A DNA stretch of 64,000 bases from NCBI GenBank assembly GCA_963921825.1, contig OY997591.1, positions 18,967,515 to 19,031,514 on the forward strand, in the 5' to 3' direction. Under the pieces are notes generated by a model. The model did not search any database. It worked only from the letters and a program-made list of their open reading frames with translations, and was not told where the DNA came from. The number at the start of each line of letters is the position of its first letter. Position 1 is the stretch's first letter. The stretch comes from Erodium maritimum. Its lineage: Eukaryota > Streptophyta > Magnoliopsida > Geraniales > Geraniaceae. Positions 4,579 through 58,534 of this stretch are shown one piece after another. Position numbers and translations under genes: made by a program.

Positions 4579-7500
4579 TGTCACGCCCCAATTTCAGTAA
4601 ACCGAACTCGGGACGCAAACATTTAAAATGATAAAACATTTGAAACCCGTTTTGAATCAACACTTTAAAATCGTCATTTAATCAATCAAAATAATATTTA
4701 CAACTCAAAAACGTCCCAACAATTGGACAAAGTACATGGTATCCGTCACTAGACTCAAAAGGTAAAACCCGGACTCCGCTCCTATCTCCTCAAGCTTCGA
4801 GAGCTCACCTAGTCCGTCCTGTGATCAGTACCTGTAGGAAAAGCAGCTAGGGGTGAGCGTTCGCTCACCACCACGGATAACCGACTGACTACGACATACT
4901 TAGCAGACAATGCCGGTAACACCAAAACCAAACCTAACACCGGGAATACAATCCCCAAACTCAAGTACTCAACTGACACACAACCCGTTACCTTCCTCAA
5001 CAGACTCAACACTCGGACTCGTAATGTAAACCCGACACAACTATCGACGACCTCCTCCAAAGACACGACAGAATACTACGCAACACCAAACAAGATCACC
5101 AAGGATCGCACACCAAACAAGATCACAAAGGATCGCATTCCTGTCAGCTGCTCAGTGCCGGTTGCTAACCGGCTGGGCTCGAGCCTGCCCCGCGCGCTTT
5201 ACCTATCATTGTCAAACTCCAGGCGGTCGACCTGTTGGCGATAAACCGAGCTACTTTTCCGATAGCTAGTCGGAAGGGGAGCTGCCCTCTCATCGCCTAA
5301 AAACGCTCACAACCTGCCGAGACTCGAACACGGATCAGGCTAGCCAAAGAATGCTCGCAACTTACCGAGACTCGAACTCGTAAGCCAGCCAAATTCCACA
5401 CCACTTCCCGACACAAAGTCAGGTCACTAACCTCGGGCAAACATAATCACAATCACAAGCAAAGTTCGACAACAGCAACAACACAGGTTCAACACTCCAC
5501 AGGCACCCATGGCCACCCAAGACACCACAGTAAAACACGGACTCAACAACCCCACGGGCACTCACGGCCTCCCAAGACACACCAACAGTAACTCACGGGC
5601 TCAACAACCCCACGAGCACTCACGGCCTCCCAAGACTCACCGACAATAACTCACGGGCTCAACAACCCCACGGGCACTCACGGCCTCCCAAGACACACCA
5701 ACAGTAACTCACGGGCTCAACAACCCCACAGGCACTCACGGCCACCCAAAACACACCAACAGTAACTCACGGGCTCTCATGGCCACCCAAGACATAACAG
5801 TAACACGGGCTCTCATGGCCACCCAAGACACAACAGTAACACGGGCTCTCATGGCCACCCAAGACACAACAGTAAAACGGGCTCTCATGGCCACCCAAGA
5901 CACAACAGTAACACGGGCTCTCATGGCCACCCAAGACACAACAGTAACACGGGCTCTCATGGCCACCCAAGACACAATAGTAACACGAGCTCTCATGGCC
6001 ACCCAAGACACAACAGTAACACGGGCCATCATGGCCACCCAAGACACAACAGTAACACGAGCTCTCATGGCCACCCAAGACACGACTTACACAAACAACC
6101 TCTGGGCATAACCAATGCCTCTAACAGTTCTAATATCAACAGTTTCACAATCAACCTCCGGGCATGTTCATATGCCTCCAGTACTTCTAATATCGATAAG
6201 TTCTCTACCCCTACGACACTACTAAGTGTCACATGCAATTCTAATGTTCGATACGTTCCTGAATCATACGACACTACCCGATATCGCCTACCTTTCTAGT
6301 ATTCGATAAACCTACTTAACCCACGACACCCTAGTGTCACATGCATTTCTACTGTTAACTTTCCCTAGTCAGGGCCGAGATCCGGCTACTTTTCCCTACC
6401 TCGTATGCTTTCTCCAAAAGCGCACAATTAAGCTCCGGCGTGATCTCCGTCACTCGCCTAGCTTTCCCTTTCCTCGGTCTGCAGCACGATCTAACAAGAA
6501 CACAGTTTTAAAATCTTTTTAGCTTGCAGGCATAAACTGAATTTTAATAAACCCGACGCCCAAAAGTAACCCCGACAATGTCGATCACTCCCAAACTCCC
6601 CAATTACTCGACATTGTCGATATTGGACCCGGAAAGGCCCGATTCGCCCGACATGGTGAATCTGCCCGGGTTTTGGAAACGCCCTTCCGGGGCTCCGAAA
6701 ATTCCCGTTTTCGTTTCTACGGTCTTAGAATAATTCAAGGGTTCCTAGGCACTCGACGGAATCGAATTACGACTTCCGAGTCATTTAATTTGCATTTCAA
6801 GTTTCTAAAACCCGTTAATTACCACTTTTCCAATTTAATTCCAAATTTCGATCCGGTTGTGGATAAATGATCCGGGGAACGTTCTAAACCAACCGATCAC
6901 CCGAGCACGTGGGCCCCACACGGCCAAGCTTGGCCGTGGGTGACTAGGGCTCTTTGGGGCCCGGCCCACCATGGTGGTGGCCGACCCTAGCTCCGGCCAG
7001 CCACCCCACATGGTGGTCGGCCACCCCTCTATGGTGGCCGGAGCTCCTCCCGAGCTCCCGGTCACCGGAAAACGTTCCCCTTCACCCCAAAACGTCTCTA
7101 AAACATCTCCAACGATCCCCCAACCTCAATACAACCCTAAACTAATAGTTTTACTCAAACCCTAACTTTCATAATTAAACAAAACGAAGATCGGTTTGGT
7201 GATTACCGTAGAGGAAGACGATGTGAGTTCGATTCCCTTAACTTTGAGACGATCCAAAGGTGGGAAGCTCGTGAATAGTAACCTCCAAACCCTAGCTCTC
7301 TTCTTCTTCTCTCCCTTTCTTCTCTCTTCTTTCTCTTTCTAAAAACTAACACTTTTCTCTTCTTTTTTTCTTTTTTTTTCAAGTGTTGGCCGAACCCCCC
7401 CTTGTAGCATCATCTTTATTTTCCCCCCAAAACTAACACCACCACTTGTTGGACAAGTGGCAAGGTGGGTCCCACACCTTTCGGAAAATATCTACTAGAT

Positions 7501-7884
7501 ATTTTCCAATCAGATTCGCAAAAATCGGACGTTTCGGGCCCCAAACGGGCACTTTTTCCAAGAAATTACGAAACTTTGCGGGCTACAAGGAAACGGCTCA
7601 ACTAAGACCGCTGCGACGACGACTAAGCTTTTTGGATCCAAAACGGTCCTTGAATGGACCAAAACGTCGCTCGGTTGACTTTTCCAGCGAAAAGTCAACA
7701 TTTCCCAAACTGATAAGAAAGTTGCCCTGAGTCCCCCGGAACTCACTTTGGTCGATAGCGGGGTCAACTTAAGTCCGGTATGCCATCGGGTCAAATTTAG
7801 GTTCTTTTAAGTGTCTGTCCAAAAATTTTAAATTTTCCTGTTGTTCGCAGGTTTGACTGGCGTTGACCGGGAGTGGTTATTACA
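4579..7884 (-). mobile_element. Solo LTR, 3.3 kb, in the FAR1-type gene
   Basis: Read on the minus strand it runs from TGTAATAACC to GGGGCGTGACA. It is flanked by TTAGT (4574-4578) and TTAGC (7885-7889), a 5-bp target duplication with one difference. There is no internal retrotransposon sequence and only one LTR, so it is a solo LTR left by LTR-LTR recombination. The FAR1-type frame reads AIAN before it and TKGGRPPKSKR after it, which fixes the insertion point within the last exon. It shares the whole LTR layout with 56811-62714. Confidence 0.92.
5490..6090 (-). repeat. Two adjoining minisatellites in the solo LTR
   Basis: From 5490 to about 5765 the units are about 57 bp (CCCACGGGCACTCACGGCC core). 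From 5767 to 6090 there are about nine units of exactly 36 bp (ACGGGCTCTCATGGCCACCC core). Both derive from the GGTGGCCATGAG motif seen in every LTR of this family. The 36-bp period keeps frames open on both strands and gives a false 12-residue repeat protein. Confidence 0.9.
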
Positions 7885-10276
7885 TTAGCAATAGCAGGTG
7901 ACATGACTTCCACTAGTTCAGGCAAAGTTATACCAGTAACCGATGCAATATAACTTGTCATGTTCAGACGTGATTCGGCAACAACGTCGTGGACTGTCTT
8001 GACACTATATTTATTCAACATATCATACAAACCCCGTAGACTATTGTTGTCAACATCAAGTGTATCTACCAATTCTTGAATTCTTGTTTTAATACCTGTA
8101 ATGAGCTCATCATCTTATATATATTCATCTTTGGACATTGCATCATCATCACACATAACACATAACAGAAGACATATTTGATTCCTTACACCATCTTTTA
8201 ATTATCAAACCTCGAGGTATTGTCTTCAATTCAGTTGTTTTCAGTACAAAATATATGTGAGCACATATTAACCCGCATGTACTAACACGTCTGCAAGCAC
8301 AACTGTATTCCTCAGTGCTAATTGTTCTCATAACTATATACACCTTTGCTGGTGTTAATCTTTTATCCAGTATCTTATATGTTCTCAAGTCACCTTCGTC
8401 ACTCATATTATCCAAGCTACATCGATCTTGATAGTACAGAAGATCATCTTGTATGTCATTGAAAACTGGACGTGTATACATTCTCCATGCATCAATTTCT
8501 ATGTGAAGATTTGTCTTTAATTTAGGCATAGCAGTATAACTTTGTATCATCAACCTATAGTGCTCGTGTCTCTGATTTTCTATAACCCCGTCACAACTCC
8601 ACACTAACTGAACAAGATGGTAATAATTGTTAGTAAAATGAGAGAACGTACTGTTCATAGACTCTGATCTTGATGTAGTCCTCATTATAAGACCCATTTC
8701 CTTGTTTCTGAAGTAAGCTGGTATCCAACTTGTGCGTATCTCGTATATGCTCTTTAACCACTTGTTCTCTTGAACTCCATGCTCATTTAAGATCTTGCTC
8801 CATCGATTTTCAAACTCATCTGGTTCGATGTAATCGTTGAAAACTATTTTTTTAAATTTATCGTAGAACGGAGTTTCTTTAACTGCAGCACAAACAACCT
8901 GTCATCAAATAAAACCTCATTATAGTTGTTATATTATTAAATACGGATCGACATATATTTTCTAATTGATTGCTTACAGAGTGTCACAAACCTACATATA
9001 TGTAGCTCTATTTATAGCAAAATATACCAGTACTTTGTATACAGTATAATGGTTAAATTTTTATACAATAATTTCTAAATAGATTGTACATAGTTTACGT
9101 AAATGAACTTCATACGATGTATTACCTTGGTATGTATCTTCTCCATAATGTGCCACATACAAAGCTTGTGTGTTGCTTGTGGCATTGTTCTCGGCACTGC
9201 AACCTTCATCGCAGGATCTTGATCAATAATTATGAATTTTGGTTGTTTCATATTCATAGCCTTCAAGAAAGCGTTGAACATCCATTCGTAGGATTCTATG
9301 TTTTCTTTTGTCACCAAGCCCAACCCGAATGTAACATTATTTCTGTAATTGTCAACACCAGTAAATGGACAGAAAGGCATAGAGTACCTGTGTAGTTTAA
9401 AATTAGTACGAATCATGACTATATAAATAAAGTTTTAATAATAATATGAAACAAAAATGTTGAATGAAACTTACTTATTTGTCGAGTACGTGCTATCAAA
9501 ACTGACATAATCACCATACAGCTCGTAGTTTTTAACTGCAATCTCATCGCACCAAAATAAATTTGTCTATCTTCCTTCAGAGTCAATAGAGTAATCATAT
9601 TGAAACCTTGTATTTGCTTCTTTCTTTATTCGAAACTTATCTAGTATGACATGAACATAACTATTTCCAATATATGCTTTCAAATCACGTTGATAGTTCA
9701 TGAAATCCATTTCAGTAGCCCCTACTTTTTCTACTCCACCACATTCTTGGCTCAAAATCATATGAGGACCTGCAGGCCCTACACCAACATTTGCACAATG
9801 ATCCAACCATGATACATGGTTTTCTGCCATTACCCTTTTCCCCTTTAATGTATGAACCCGTTTCTTACCAACCTGTGTCCTGCAATGAATTTGGTGACTT
9901 TATACCCAAGTTTTACGTTTATAAACTTCATACCAATCATTGCTCCACAACAAGTCCTTATGAGCAAAGTCTTACGCTTCTTTCCTGAATTTCTAAGTAT
10001 CTGTTCAGATGTTTGGGGTCTAAATCCTTCTTTTGAACACGTGATGTACTTCATTACCACATGTCCTTCTTTATCTTTAATTTGCGTATTCAACCTGGTA
10101 TCAAATCCAGCAAGCAGTCCATATCTTTTGTAAAACAATATGCCATGATCCAAAGTTGGGAAAAACTGTCCACAATATGGTGTTCGCCCGTTGTTGCAAT
10201 TTGGTATATATGTTTTTCCACCTGTTGGACCTACTACAACTGTGGCTGAGGATTCATTTTCCATATTATTTTCCAT

Positions 10277-17976: not shown

Positions 17977-18363
17977 ATTCATCGTCAGTTATATTAACTA
18001 GAGATGGGGATGCTCTTAGAGCATGTACAACAGAACGGTCCTGCGTGAGGCCCTGACCCTGAGGCTCTTGTGCTGACTGGACAAAAGTCAGGGAGTGGGA
18101 GTGCAGAAAAGTGGGTGTTCTACAACAGAAAGGACCCCTGAGGCCCTGGGAGTGCAGAACAGTGCTGACTGGATTATTATTTGATATTTTCCTGTTTTAT
18201 TTAATTCGTTATCAGAAACCGTTTAAATTGTTTATAATTTAAACAATTTTGGAAATAAATAATTAAGGACAATCAATAATACATAAATAAATTTAACACG
18301 AATATAAATGAACTTCTAATTTTATTCAACCCCTTTTAATACAACCCAAAACAAAATACAAGT

Positions 18364-19900
18364 TCAAGAATCATCGTCTGTTGGGCCGACATCTAATGGT
18401 GGGGGTTGTCGTCGAAGTTCTTCGATTTGGGCTTTAAGGGTGGCTATGAGTTGTCGCAGTTCGGACTTGAAAAACTTATGGTCTGCCATAGCCTCTTCGT
18501 CGTAGGAAGATGTATCCGCCCCCAGAACCTCCTTGTAGGTGACGAGGTTTGATTCCCACTGTTGGGTTAATGTCTGTATCAGGCGATGCCTTTCTACATG
18601 TTGTTCGCCACGTGAACGTTCACCATCCACCCGTGAACGTTCCAGCTCGACGAAGGCAGACATTTGGGCCGTGAGGACGGTCCCCTTCTTTGCGGCCTTC
18701 GCTGCCTTCTTCCCTTGCGGTCGGCGAGGGGGACTTGGGTCGGCCTCAGGGGATGGCGGTGTGTCGCTGAGAGGGACTTGAGTCCCCTCGTAGTTCTCGT
18801 TTCCTCCCCATTCTGGTTGTTGGGACTCACCACTGATATGTGTGCCCTCCTCCCCTGTGCTTGTGGGTGGGGTTGAGCTGTAAGCCCCAACCTCATCCAA
18901 CCGCTGTCGTTGTTGGCGTACTTGACGGCGGACATTTCCCGTTGTGCCCTCGTGGGCAGTGAACTTCGAGATGCCCTCGAGCCTCTCCACCCAATGATCC
19001 AGGTCGAACTTTAGTGGGTGGTCCTTAATCACTTTCCATGCACCCTCCCACAGTTCCTTCGCACGTTTCATGTGCTCTGCCTGGTTGGCGCCGCTCGGTT
19101 TCTCCTCCTTGGACTTCTTCAAATAGCCGAGGAACCTCCTTGTCTTAGAGGAACCTCTGCCCCAACGTTTCTTGATAGCTTCCCACCGTCGCACTGGGAA
19201 ACCTCCCTTCGAGTTGTATTTCTTTGTAACTTCGCACCAGAATGTGGTGCCGGTTTGGGAGTTGCCCTTGATGGCGTCTTTCGAAGAACTCAACCAGCAA
19301 GTAATGAGGTGGTGGTCCTCCTGCTTGCTGAATGTCCGGCCATCCGGTTCTGGTTCTTGGGGTTGGCCTCGGGGTTGGGCTCGGGCAGCAGGGGCTCGGG
19401 CTCGTCGTTGGGAAGGTCCGGCAGAGGATGGTTGGGAGGTTTGTACGTCGGGTAGTGGATGACCCTCGTAGTTGTAGAATTGGGTTCCCATCCCCCATTG
19501 TGGTTGTGGTTGGTACGGTGGCATCTGGAAACCTTGTGGGGGCATGGTCCAATGTGATGGCACTTGGAACCCTGGCGCCATTTGATATTGTTGGGGACGG
19601 TATTGCCCTGATAAAAAAATTTAAAACAATAAATTAAGTGCTAAAAAATAAAATAATAAAATAAGTGCAAATAATTAATCAAAAAAATGAATGCAATGCA
19701 TTAATACAATAAAATAAGTACAAAAATTACGTTACATAAATAATAAGTTTGCACTAACCTGAACTCGACCCCGGGTTCGAGTTTGGGGAGACGAAGCGAT
19801 TGCCCGTTAGAATGTCTCTGAAACCTCGTGCCAGTTCGTCCTCCGTGAATCCTACTTCGTCTCCATCTGAATGTACACGAGACCCAGCTTCGCCTGACAT
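18364..19900 (-). CDS. Harbinger ORF1: Myb/SANT-like DNA-binding protein, two exons, 461 aa
   Basis: Exon 1 is 19900-19759 (starts MSGEAGSRVHSDGDE), with donor GTTAGT at 19758 and acceptor CAG at 19610-19608. Exon 2 is 19607-18364. The joined length of 1386 nt is 462 codons with no internal stop. After a Pro/Gln/Ala-rich N-terminal half comes a trihelix/SANT-like domain at about residues 138-206 (RTFSKQEDHHLITCWLSSS and RRWEAIKKRWGR), then a Lys/Glu-rich and Arg/Glu-rich C-terminal part. In plant PIF/Harbinger transposons such a protein cooperates with the transposase in TIR recognition. A TATA box lies about 107 bp upstream of the ATG. The frame looks intact, unlike the transposase next door. 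It may be annotated elsewhere as a NAM-like or trihelix protein. Confidence 0.88.
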
Positions 19901-20006
19901 TTTTCACGCGAATAATTGAAACGAGAGAGGAGAATTTGGGAAGATGAGAGTGAAATTGGAGAGTGAAAGTAGAGAGTGGTGTGGAAAAAATGAGAGTGAA
20001 GAGAGG

Positions 20007-20014
20007 TATTTATA
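20007..20014 (-). promoter_or_regulatory. TATA box of Harbinger ORF1
   Basis: TATAAATA on the minus strand, about 107 bp upstream of the ORF1 ATG (19900). The same site occurs at the matching place in unit 2. Confidence 0.7.
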
Positions 20015-20678
20015 GGGTTAGTTTTTATTGATTTTTGAATTAAAAAAAATGTAGCCGTTAGAAACCGACCGTTGCCAACGGTCGGCCCACGTGGCGCAGC
20101 CACAGGCTGCCACGGCAGCGAGGGCGCGCAGGGAGCGGGACCGGCCAGCGGGCAGCAGACGGGGCACACGGAACGCACAGAGGGGGGCGGGAGCGCGAAA
20201 ATGGGGAGCGGGCGCGCGTTTTTCGGCCTCCATAGCGGGTCGGCCCGCGTGCCGCGGTCCGGGCGCACGCGGAGTGGGGCGCGGGTGCGACCCGTTGTAC
20301 ATGCTCTTAGAGCATGTACAACAGAACGGCCCTGCGTGAGGCCCTGGCCCTGAGGCCCTTGTGCTGACTGGACAAAAATCAAGGAGTAGGAGTGCAGAAA
20401 AGTGGGTGTTCTACAACAGAAAGGACCTCTGAGGCCCTAGGAGTGCAGAACAGTGCTGACTGGATTATTATTTGATATTTTCCTGTTTTATTTAATTATT
20501 TATCAGAAACCGTTTAAATTTTTTATAATTTAAACAATTTTGGAACAAAAATAAGTATTGACAATCAATAATGAATAAATAAATTCAACACGAATATAAA
20601 TGAACTTCTAATTTTATTCAACCCCTTTTAATACAACACCAAAAAACCAGCTTCAAGAGCACAAACGACTACTCGTCG

Positions 20679-22064
20679 TCATGGAAACCAGCTCCATATA
20701 GACCCCATAAGATCTTGTTGTAGTTGATGGTGGATCTCAAGATCTATGACACTTTGTTGAGCATCCACAAGTCCTTGGTATTCCAATGGCCCTCCGTGGT
20801 GCCATCGTTCCGGTGGTGTCCAATTCGGCATTTCTGGAGGTTGCGCCCACAACAACTCCTCCTCCCCATACTCGTATCGGTCGCGCTCATCCTCTACAAT
20901 CATGTTGTGTAGAATTATGCAAGTGTGCATGATATCAGCCAAAAAGTCTGCGCTCCAAGACCGAGCGGGACGGGAAATGATGTGCCACCTTGCTTGAAGT
21001 ACTCCAAAAGCCCTTTCAATATCTTTTCGAGCACCTTCTTGACATTTAGCAAACAACTTCTCTTTGGGCTCGAAGGGATGCCGAATAGTCTTCACGAACC
21101 GTGCGTATGATGGGTAAATGCCGTCCACCAAGTAATAAGGTCAGTCGTACCGATACCCGTTGATCTCGTACTCCACAGCTAGATCATGGCCGTAGTAAGC
21201 GTCTAGGAATAGGTGGTTGTGGTTGAGGACGTTGATGTCGTTGTTCAATCCAGCCATCCCGAAAAATGCATGCGAAATCCATAAATCACGGGACGCTACA
21301 GCTTCAAGCAGAATCGTCTTGTCCCCGTGGTGATCTCCCCGTCCATGGGCTCCCTGCTCTTCGGTTGGGCAGTTCTTCCACTTCCAATGCATACAGTCAA
21401 GACTCCCCGCCATTCCGGGAAACCCTCGGCTGTACCCTTCTCAGAGTAAGCGGTCCATGTCTGCCGGTGTCGGTGTACGCTCGTACTCAGCTCCGAATAC
21501 CTGAATGACGGACTTGCAAAACTTACGTAAACATACAAGTATGGTGCTTACCCCAATGCGCAGAGTTTCGTCCAATGAATCGGCCGAGGACCCATACGCA
21601 AGCATCCGTATAGCGGCGGTGCACTTTTGCTCCGTTGATAAGCCCGTCCGTGAGGCAGCGTCGAGCCTCCATGGCATGAAGTAAGGGTCGTGAGCCTTCA
21701 CCGCGTTCATAATCCGTTGGAAAAGTGGTCTGCACATACGGAACCAAAGCCTGAACATTTCAGGGCCATATAGGGGTTGTTGGTCAAAATAGTTCGCCAT
21801 CAATTGGGTGTGGGCTTCCGCACGATTTCTGTCAATCTCTCGGCGCATTGGTTCCCCACGCATGGCCCTCTGGACCCTTGGCATTACTCTCTGCATCTGC
21901 CTCTCCATCATCCGCCGGAATCGTCGCTGAACTGGCCGCATTTGGGCTGCCATCTCCTCATATGTCGGCAGTTGGGCTGCCATCTCCGCATGCGTCGGCA
22001 TCCGGGGAGGCAGCTCCTCGTACGTCATCTCCTCAGCGTCGGACATAACCTCGTCGTCGGACAT
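20679..22064 (-). pseudogene. PIF/Harbinger DDE transposase, one frame with two TGA stops
   Basis: A single frame of 462 codons runs from ATG at 22064 to the stop at 20679. It has an N-terminal acidic, Met-rich part, a helical region (LWFRMCRPLFQRIMNAV), then the DDE_Tnp_4 catalytic domain (HARBI1 nuclease type). Catalytic residues are visible: D223 in GSLDCMHWKW, D276 in GLNNDINVL and E350 in DIERAFGVLQARW. TGA interrupts the frame at codons 208 and 308; each could come from one C-to-T change. No frameshift was seen. Both stops flank the catalytic centre, so the protein is presumably not made. It is the natural partner of the ORF1 in unit 1. Confidence 0.92.
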
Positions 22065-22142
22065 TTTCAAAAATAGCAAGTAGGAAGTGATTATGAAAGA
22101 GTGAAAGTATAGAGTGGTGTGAAAAAAATGAGAGTGAAGATG

Positions 22143-22150
22143 TGTATTTA
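22143..22150 (-). promoter_or_regulatory. TATA box of the Harbinger transposase
   Basis: TATAAATA on the minus strand, about 79 bp upstream of the ATG at 22064. It sits in the same shared context (CTATAAATA) as the one in unit 1. Confidence 0.7.
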
Positions 22151-22447
22151 TAGGGTTAGTTTTAGTTGATTTTTGAATTAAAAAAAATTAGCCGTTAGCA
22201 AAATGACTGTTGCCAACGGTCATTCCACGTGGCGCAACCACAGGCTGCCACGCCAGCGACGGCGCGCAGGGAGCGGGACCGGCTAGCGGGCAGCAGACGG
22301 GGCACGCGGCACGCACAGAGGGGGGCGGGGGCGCGAAAATGGGGAGCGGGCGCGCGTTTTTCGGCCTCCACAGCGGGTCGGCCCGCGTGCCGCGGTCCGG
22401 GCGCGCGCGGAGTGGGGCGCGGGTGCGACCCGTTGTACATGCTCTTA

Positions 22448-35873: not shown

Positions 35874-36082
35874 CACCATGAACCCTCTTAATTTTCAATT
35901 CACTGCCTCCTCCTCCTTCTCCTGCCGCAATTCAGTGTTTGGTCTTTACAATTGATGCATCTACTGCCACCTTAGGGTTTGTGCTTTCAATCTCCAATCT
36001 ATGGTAGCCTGATTTGATTCTCTATGCATCTCCTCTGAGTTGATCCATTGCTGTTCGTTAGTATATCTACATCCAAAAGCTT

Positions 36083-36146
36083 GCCTGTGATGGTTTTAAA
36101 TATACTTTGAGATATTTTTTCCGTGAAACAAACTTAAATCTGAGGC
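36083..36146 (+). ncRNA. Box C/D snoRNA 1, target not identified
   Basis: The terminal stem GCCT/AGGC encloses box C (TGATGG, one base from consensus) and box D (CTGA at 36140-36143), 64 nt in all. An internal TTGA may be box D'. The sequence before box D (ACAAACTTAAAT) did not match rRNA in memory. Support is from structure, and from its place in line with three others with the same stem layout. Confidence 0.65.
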
Positions 36147-36248
36147 ATATCTTTCCATGAAAATTTGCTCTTTTTTTCTTTTCTTTTCTGTACTCTTAGA
36201 ATTGGTTATGCAAGTGACGATAAAAAGACAGGGACATCAGAGCTCTTT

Positions 36249-36331
36249 GAAAGAGTATATTGTGATGATTTTGTCTTTGGGAATCTCTCTGATGCATCTT
36301 CCTTTTCCTTCCTTGGATGTCTGAGACTTTC
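36249..36331 (+). ncRNA. U14: Box C/D snoRNA U14
   Basis: A GAAAG/CTTTC stem encloses box C (TGATGA), an internal CTGATGC (D'/C') and box D (CTGA at 36321-36324). Directly upstream of box D is CCTTCCTTGGATGT (36307-36320). This is complementary over 14 bases to the conserved 18S rRNA stretch ACATCCAAGGAAGG and is the known U14 guide. By the box D plus five rule it points at the C of ACATCC, the site methylated by U14 in yeast and humans. U14 also takes part in early 18S processing. The gene is in polycistronic clusters in plants, as here. Confidence 0.88.
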
Positions 36332-56622: not shown

Positions 56623-58534
56623 GGATAAAAATCAGGTACAAACTTGTATCTTTCGTCAGAACGTAGAACTATCAATCTGGGCCCTTGGATCGTAGAATTA
56701 ATGGCCCAGATTTAATGCATATCTTTTAATATCTTTTTAATTAATGCATATCTTTTAATTGATTTCGTAATCAATCACCCCCCCCCCTGAATTTCGGTGG
56801 CCATTCGATCTGTAATAACCACTTCCGGTCAACGCCAGTCAAACCTGCGAAAAACAGGAAAATTTAAAAATTTTAAGACAGACACTTAACTTAACCTAAT
56901 TTGACCCCGAGGGTCTTACCGGACTTAAGATGACCCCGGTTTCGACAAAAATGAGTTCCGGGGGACTCAGGGCAACTTTCTGATCAATTTGGGAAAAGTT
57001 GACTTTTCGCTGTAAAAGTCAACCGAGCGACGTTTTGGTCCATTCGAGTACCGTTTTGGATCCAAAAAGCTTAGCCGTCGTCGCAGCGGTCTTAGTTGAG
57101 CCGTTTCCTTGTAGCCCGCCAAGTTTCGTATTTTCTTGGAAAAAGTGCCCGTTCGGGGCCCGAAACGTCCGATTTTCGCGAATCTGATTGGAAAATATCA
57201 AGTAGATATTTTCCAAAAGGTGTGGGACCCACCTTGCCACTTGGCCAACAAGTGGTGGTGTTTGTTTTGGGGTGAAAATAAGAAGAGAGGTATAGGGGGG
57301 GGGGGGTGTTCGGCCAAGCTTAATTCAAAAGGAAAAAAAATAGAAAGTAGAAGAGAAAAGTTAGAGAGAGAAGGAGAAGAGAGAAAAGGAGAAGAAGAAG
57401 AGAGCTAGGGTTTTGGGGCTACTATTCACGTCATCTCCACCATTTGATCATCTCAAAAGTTAGGGATTCAAGCTCACCTCATCCTCCTCTTGAGTAAACC
57501 GATTCCCGTTTTGTTGATTTTCAAATGTTAGGGTTTGGTTAAAAATGATGTGTTAGGGTTGTAGTGAGGTTAGGGGTTTGTTAGAGACGTTTTGGAGGTG
57601 GTTGGAGGAGAGATTGGACGTGTTCCGGTGACCGGAAGCTCGGGAGGAGCTTCGGCCACCGTGGGTGGTGGCCGGCCGGCCATGGGGTGGCTGGCCGGAG
57701 CTGGGACCAGCCCCCTCCATGGTGGCCGAGCCCCCATTGAAACCCTAGGGCCCACGGCCAAGTGGGTCGGGTGGGGCCCACGTGCTCGGGTGATCGGGTT
57801 TAGTGTTCGGGTGGTTTAAAACGTTCTCCGGACCATTTATCCTTAACCGAATCGAAATTTGGAATTAAATTGGAAAAGTTGTAATTAACGGGTTTTAGAA
57901 ACTTTAAACGTTAATTATTTGACTCAGAAGTCGGAATTCGTTTACGTCAAGTGCATTGGGGCCCTTGAATTATTCCAAGACCGTAGAAACAAAAACGGGA
58001 ATTTTTGGATCCCCGGAAGGGCATTTACAAAACCCGGGCAGATTCGCCATGTCGGGCGAATCGGGCCTTTACGGGTCCTTTATCGACAATGTCGAGTATT
58101 TGGGAAGTTTGGGAGTGATCAACATTGTTGGGGTTGCGTTTGGGCGTTAAGTTTATTAAATTCCGGTTTATTTCCTGCAAGTTAAAGTGCATTAAAAAAT
58201 GTGTTCTTTTAGATCGTACTGCGGACAGAGGCAAAGGGAAGCTCGGCGAGTGACTGGGATCACGTCGAGACTTAGTGGAGCACTTTTGGAGTTATATACG
58301 AGGTAGGGAAAAGTAGCCGGATCTCGGCCCTGACTAGGGAAAGTTAACAGTAGAATCGCATGTGACACCGGGGTGTCGTGGGTTAAGTAGGTTTATTGAA
58401 TATTAGAAAAGCATGATACGAGATTGTAGCGAATATGAGAAAAGCATGTGACACTTAGCAGTGTCGTAGGAGCAGAGAACTTAGCGATTTTAGAATTAGT
58501 GGAGGCATATGACCATGCCCGGAGGTTGATTGTT

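Follow-up and report, generated by a model that had tools for sequence, protein, structure and literature searches.

The plant Erodium maritimum harbours DNA transposons in which the two genes of the PIF/Harbinger superfamily, ORF1 and the transposase gene, lie on separate elements. The window, a stretch of 64,000 nucleotides (GenBank assembly GCA_963921825.1, contig OY997591.1, positions 18,967,515 to 19,031,514 of the forward strand), contains two such elements side by side, unit A with ORF1 only and unit B with the DDE transposase only, as an earlier note on this DNA had described. The window is probably one locus of a bipartite PIF/Harbinger family, whose ORF1 protein and transposase would be supplied in trans between the two kinds of unit. 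The earlier note had proposed such a family together with two further ideas, namely that the pair might move as one composite and that its units derived from one parent by complementary deletions; separate single-gene units with their own target-site duplications (TSDs) are borne out by the genome, and the composite and deletion ideas are not.

Unit A, 2288 bp long, occupies 18019–20306 with terminal inverted repeats (TIRs) at 18019–18031 and 20294–20306, and unit B, 2135 bp long, occupies 20310–22444 with TIRs at 20310–20322 and 22432–22444. Each unit starts with GAGCATGTACAAC and finishes with GTTGTACATGCTC, and the four exact copies of GAGCATGTACAAC in the window all belong to these perfect 13-bp TIRs. 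The two units share a single TTA (20307–20309) with fully complementary 13-bp arms on either side, and further TTA target sites border the pair on the left (18016–18018) and on the right (22445–22447); the abutting layout with its own TIRs and one common TTA is thus exactly as first described. The units follow one another head to tail; both genes lie on the minus strand and are read from the right end. Their ends, said in the earlier note to be nearly the same, are about 94% identical over some 350 bp per side: the left (3′) ends, at 18019–18369 in unit A and 20310–20658 in unit B, agree at 93.9% over ~350 bp, and the right (5′, promoter) ends, at 19960–20306 and 22098–22444, at 93.6% over 347 bp. 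The gene parts are dissimilar, their longest match being a 17-bp stretch. Between the shared right end and the ATG lie 59 bp in the case of ORF1 and 33 bp in that of the transposase; on the left, the shared sequence extends as far as the stop codon of ORF1 but falls 20 bp short of the transposase stop. Since the shared ends run almost up to each gene, ORF1 and the transposase occupy the same kind of cassette. Both genes have the same TATAAAT box in the right end (minus strand, 20008–20014 in unit A and 22146–22152 in unit B, each at index 292 from the right TIR) and the same AATAAA in the left end (minus strand, 18321–18326 and 20613–20618), signals by which each unit is predicted to be a complete transcription unit.

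ORF1 consists of two exons, exon 1 at 19759–19900 with its ATG at 19898–19900 and exon 2 at 18364–19607 with the stop codon and a Myb/SANT-like stretch, separated by a GT..AG intron of 151 bp (19608–19758). Once this intron is removed the frame is open over 461 codons, in agreement with the intact gene of that length in the earlier note. Its profile match to Myb_DNA-bind_5 is weak (E 7.5e-4; 19.8 bits, under the curated 21.7). A protein-database search with ORF1 gave no match at E<=0.001 among 7989 and 59 candidates, a fold model from the single sequence was too poor for use (mean predicted local distance difference test score 46), and the solved structures included no sequence match for either the ORF1 protein or the transposase.

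The transposase frame occupies 20679–22064 on the minus strand. Its pieces match PF04827 Plant_tran (E 2.3e-36 and 6e-41) and DDE_Tnp_4 (2.2e-6), the profiles of a PIF/Harbinger transposase, and transposon superfamilies are defined by transposase sequence (PMC2836001). Read through, it finds 3619 proteins at E<=0.001, the top match being 60% identical over 85%, and it aligns at full length with nine relatives, the closest of which shares 55% identity along the full alignment and 60% within the matched part. In this alignment of 10, D223 and E350 are invariant and D276 nearly so; we take these three residues to be the DDE triad. The copy in unit B is broken by two in-frame stops and by an 11-bp deletion near its 3′ end, which is absent from all 31 of the other copies compared, so the window pair is not a working pair. 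The N-terminal part of the frame contains three imperfect 30-bp tandem repeats (21933–22022). In spinach, one gene model (protein P0094) seems to fuse an ORF1-like part with a transposase.

The distribution of the two kinds of unit was surveyed in the genome to which the window belongs (763 Mb, 40 contigs) with three queries, each scored for its best 40 candidates: the 4426-bp whole pair (5135 candidates, 51 matches), ORF1 (1579 candidates, giving 40 full-length copies at 90–100%) and the transposase (3037 candidates, giving 40 full-length or near full-length copies at 95–100%). The copy counts are lower bounds and are biased to copies near the window's own. Both the best 40 ORF1 copies and the best 40 transposase copies are dispersed over the genome. 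In 33 of the 40 ORF1 copies (the window, nine from the first unit set and 23 of 29 later copies), the two TIRs lie one gene apart and the 3-bp flanks are identical. Another has both TIRs with unlike flanks (CTA/TTA), and in all 34 there is no room inside for a transposase. The remaining six have lost ends, four being without one TIR, one without both and one, at C3:71.99 Mb, without one; their original borders are therefore not visible, and the same holds for some transposase copies. The flank pieces of these six contain no transposase, except that the copy at C3:71.99 Mb abuts a transposase unit. The transposase gene likewise had no match in 58 flank pieces of 29 ORF1 copies.

The converse holds for the transposase copies, 37 of whose best 40 were examined, 27 in extracted loci and 10 by flank pieces. 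Identical 3-bp flanks enclose 22 of 23 transposase units outside arrays and six of the 10 further copies, the other four having no TIR on one side in the piece examined. ORF1 had no match in the 20 flank pieces of these 10 copies, and among the 29 transposase loci L012–L040 it is present only in array L029. The genome search suggested by the earlier note thus found many independent ORF1-only and transposase-only units with TSDs of their own, and no two-gene unit among the best 40 ORF1 copies (40 examined) or the best 40 transposase copies (37 examined); the conventional autonomous element, with both genes in one TIR pair, did not appear among these best-ranked copies. The two kinds, ORF1 units of ~2.3 kb and transposase units of ~2.1 kb with near-identical ends, therefore each insert alone with a 3-bp TSD. 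In a set of 32 units outside arrays, 31 have identical 3-bp flanks, which are TTA or TAA in 28; together with the short TIRs, this is the usual pattern of PIF/Harbinger. The set leaves aside the window, arrays L029, L037, L039 and L041 (L006 having been dropped as a duplicate of L041) and the lost-end units L015, L033 and L035, and keeps L023. The flanks differ between units, so the insertions are independent. Identical flanks other than TTA or TAA (TGA three times, GAA once) occur in L004, L005, L013 and copy 27 (L094/L095).

The coding sequences suggest that transposase frames were kept during the spread of the family. Frames were counted in 32 of 34 matches, the truncated L041 and a deletion derivative in L037 being dropped; 12 of the 32 copies are open from start to stop codon, nonsense changes account for most of the damage in the remaining 20, and the window copy alone is frameshifted. 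Across the coding parts of 25 transposase units there are 496 substitutions but no indel, against 453 substitutions and 69 indels in the shared ends; the count omits unit B of the window, units that have lost an end and those in arrays outside the chosen set, and some of the 69 end indels look common to several copies and hence are not independent. It is this indel contrast that argues for maintained frames, the amino-acid ratio giving weaker support. In 10 ORF1 units, substitutions and indels number 238 and 1 in the exons, 163 and 29 in the ends, and 22 and 1 in the intron. Open ORF1 frames are found in two of 12 copies. With uninterrupted frames in some copies of both kinds, the family departs from a non-autonomous family of deletion derivatives, like miniature inverted-repeat transposable elements, which would have no intact coding capacity. 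In different transposase copies (L012–L040) nonsense codons recur at codons 64, 236, 359, 420 and 456, as if broken copies had multiplied or hot spots had been hit repeatedly.

The separation of the genes is not confined to the young copies. Array L029 contains an older ORF1-only unit, whose gene is 86% like that of the window, and an older transposase-only unit (90%), and L037 contains another old transposase unit with a gene 91% like the window's. The right ends of this old subfamily are 68–77% like the young right ends. The family-majority versions of the ends of the two kinds are 95% identical to each other. In larger end trees (60 young tips, rooted on an old transposase end, and leaving out those five of the 29 copies that have lost ends), the 26 ends of young transposase units all group in a single clade nested among the ORF1-unit ends, for both ends of the element (support 0.92 and 0.94). 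Smaller trees, without the 24 later ORF1 copies, give the same nesting for the right ends and two sister groups for the left ends; all trees omit the lost-end units L015, L033, L035 and L041. Judging by the nesting in the larger trees, ends of ORF1 type seem to have been acquired by the young transposase units when single-gene units were already in existence.

The mechanism that we favour for the bipartite family would combine these observations with what is established for the superfamily. Both proteins are required in the characterised PIF/Harbinger members (PMC2836001), and elements are mobilised in yeast when ORF1 and transposase are provided on separate plasmids (PMC10288884). By analogy, the ORF1 protein and the transposase would act jointly in trans on the ends of both kinds of unit. 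In the window, one unit of each kind would have inserted at the same target, CTCTTAGAG, and the tree topologies suggest that exchange between the two kinds, at a time when the genes had already separated, may have kept their ends alike. The fuller form of this proposal, a stable multipartite DNA transposon of mutually dependent units in at least two subfamilies, with ends matched by exchange and one protein pair serving both, has in our judgement about an even chance of being correct; multipartite viruses offer a comparison.

Several results weigh against the bipartite reading. Amino-acid constraint among the copies is weak: the mean ratio of nonsynonymous to synonymous substitution rates (dN/dS) is 0.82 for the transposase and 0.70 in its 12 intact copies, 0.67–0.91 between old and young transposases, and 0.58 for ORF1 (L005, L029 and L041 excluded). 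With 0.58 for ORF1 and 0.70–0.82 for the transposase, many of the observed changes look like post-insertion decay. The frame-free ORF1 intron also has just one indel, so few indels alone are no proof of selection, and intact ORF1 frames are few. The old ORF1 unit is a single, frameshifted copy. An exact junction of two young TIRs occurs at the window only, among 41 loci. Lastly, the best 40 candidates were scored per query, and a rare two-gene parent may lie outside them.

This last point bears directly on a rival explanation, in which a two-gene Harbinger with the same TIRs, be it rare, lost or beyond the copies surveyed, carries both kinds along as non-autonomous passengers that each happen to hold one gene as cargo. 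We regard it as possible, if rather unlikely. In its favour, non-autonomous derivatives outnumber coding elements in the PIF/Harbinger families of two published accounts (PMC2213677, PMC6327408), and the coding dN/dS among copies is near neutral. Cargo of this sort is harder to reconcile with two classes that both hold one complete gene cut near its start and stop codons, with the open transposase frames and the lack of indels in 25 coding parts, or with the absence of a transposase inside the unit of any best-40 ORF1 copy, six of which have lost ends. A different question is how the split arose. Complementary deletions, perhaps repeated, in a two-gene family would be compatible with a bipartite family, and the likeness of the two kinds of end, the equal divergence of both ends of the window pair and the sister groups of the smaller left-end tree all favour them. 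They would require precise deletions at the gene borders in both kinds, however, and they sit poorly with the nested transposase-unit ends of the larger trees and with old ends that lie far outside though the transposase genes are 90–91% alike. The older subfamily is split too, and derivation of the two units from one parent in this way, as the earlier note had suggested, is in our view unlikely; repeated splitting, or an exchange of ends once the genes had separated, fits better than one pair of complementary deletions.

The remaining alternatives concern the pair itself. The outer TIRs and outer TTAs match, as they would if the outermost TIRs carried the pair as one composite, but of the 51 matches to the whole-pair query the window alone spans the full length, the other long matches being unit A or unit B, and other arrays vary in composition; movement of the pair as a whole is thus very improbable. 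The idea that a normal two-gene element was rearranged locally, at this one place, has nothing in its favour beyond the abutment and is ruled out by the dozens of dispersed single-gene units with their own TSDs.

For the bipartite family, the abutment is best read as a consequence of target choice, the order of events being presumed. The rebuilt empty site, GATGCTC-TTA-GAGCC, includes CTCTTAGAG, and the three CTCTTAGAG sites in the window are all borders of the pair. Because the TIRs start with GAG and finish with CTC, a unit that inserts at CTC-TTA-GAG recreates this nine-base sequence on either side of itself, and a second unit can land at the same TTA. The 110 outer flanks of 55 units lean the same way: against expectations under uniform bases, G comes first in 50 (27.5 expected), GAG in nine (1.7) and GAGCATG in three (0.01). 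The preference is loose, the full motif being absent from most of the 32 targets. A literature search with the maize target motif found no paper. A 9-bp extended target preference around TTA is described for plant PIF/Harbinger elements (PMC2836001), and a 9-bp preference for mPIF/PIF (PMC6327408).

Other abutting arrays differ in make-up, age and orientation. L029 is made up of an ORF1 and two transposase units in abutment, L037 of three transposase-type units, L039 of a short unit and a transposase unit, and L041 of one ORF1 unit next to one transposase unit; L037 and L041 each have one truncated end at the abutment. Among 40 ORF1 and 45 transposase places, the only pair within 20 kb besides the window is that at C3:71.99 Mb, where the two units abut in opposite orientation and the transposase unit is without its outer end; array L029 does not enter this count, its older ORF1 being outside the 40. 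In L037, a 1264-bp unit (6240–7503) with TIR-like ends and the second half of the transposase only adjoins a full transposase unit and is probably a deletion derivative. GAGCAT lies beside the TSD in the right flank of L023, in copies 19 (L078/L079) and 26 (L092/L093) and in L106/L107; such flanks resemble another family TIR, hinting at further abutting units.

Known transposons offer partial parallels. Virtually all coding PIF/Harbinger elements characterised by 2010 carry both genes (PMC2836001). Ping, Pong and mPing of rice share a Harbinger-type transposase, short TIRs, a 3-bp TSD and the need for two proteins (PMC10288884), but the coding PIF/Harbinger elements so far characterised are two-gene (PMC2836001), whereas the Erodium genes each have their own TIR pair and their own copy of the promoter end. 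PePIF1 of Phalaenopsis is PIF-like, with a TTA TSD and many copies, some of them without ORF1; its 66 putative autonomous elements, in contrast, have both genes within two TIRs, and the one-gene copies are described as defective remnants (PMC6327408). The MtPH-E elements of Medicago bear a transposase with no ORF1 found, yet they number three, and the available portion of that report describes no partner ORF1-only element (PMC2213677). HAL1 (half-L1) of mammals encodes only ORF1p of a two-protein system but is a retrotransposon, described as a non-autonomous derivative of L1 (PMC5753468). A search of the open-licence literature, with subscription papers largely outside it, found no described family with ORF1 and transposase on separate elements. 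A literature search with the TIR letters returned no transposon paper by title, and viral contigs had no match to the 20-base end pattern.

If the bipartite reading is true, a lineage whose genes lie on separately inserting units would show how a two-protein system survives when its genes are unlinked. Splitting might bring a gain of its own, since excision in yeast is more frequent for smaller Harbinger elements (PMC10288884). The family raises the testable question of whether two genomic parasites can become obligate nuclear partners, and of what keeps their ends alike; a family of this sort would escape any annotation that requires the two genes inside a single TIR pair.

Elsewhere in the window, two adjacent C/D-box small nucleolar RNA genes lie on the plus strand at 36078–36298, snoZ267 (36078–36151) and snoR44_J54 (36207–36298). 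Long inverted repeats at 6532–7780 and 56917–58171 have pieces that are 74–92% complementary and lie ~49–51 kb apart, and short-period tandem arrays occur near 5.5 kb, 46.5 kb and 59.8 kb. A 250-aa open frame on the minus strand (8149–8901) has a weak SWIM zinc-finger match under the curated cut-off and may resemble Mutator-like transposases.

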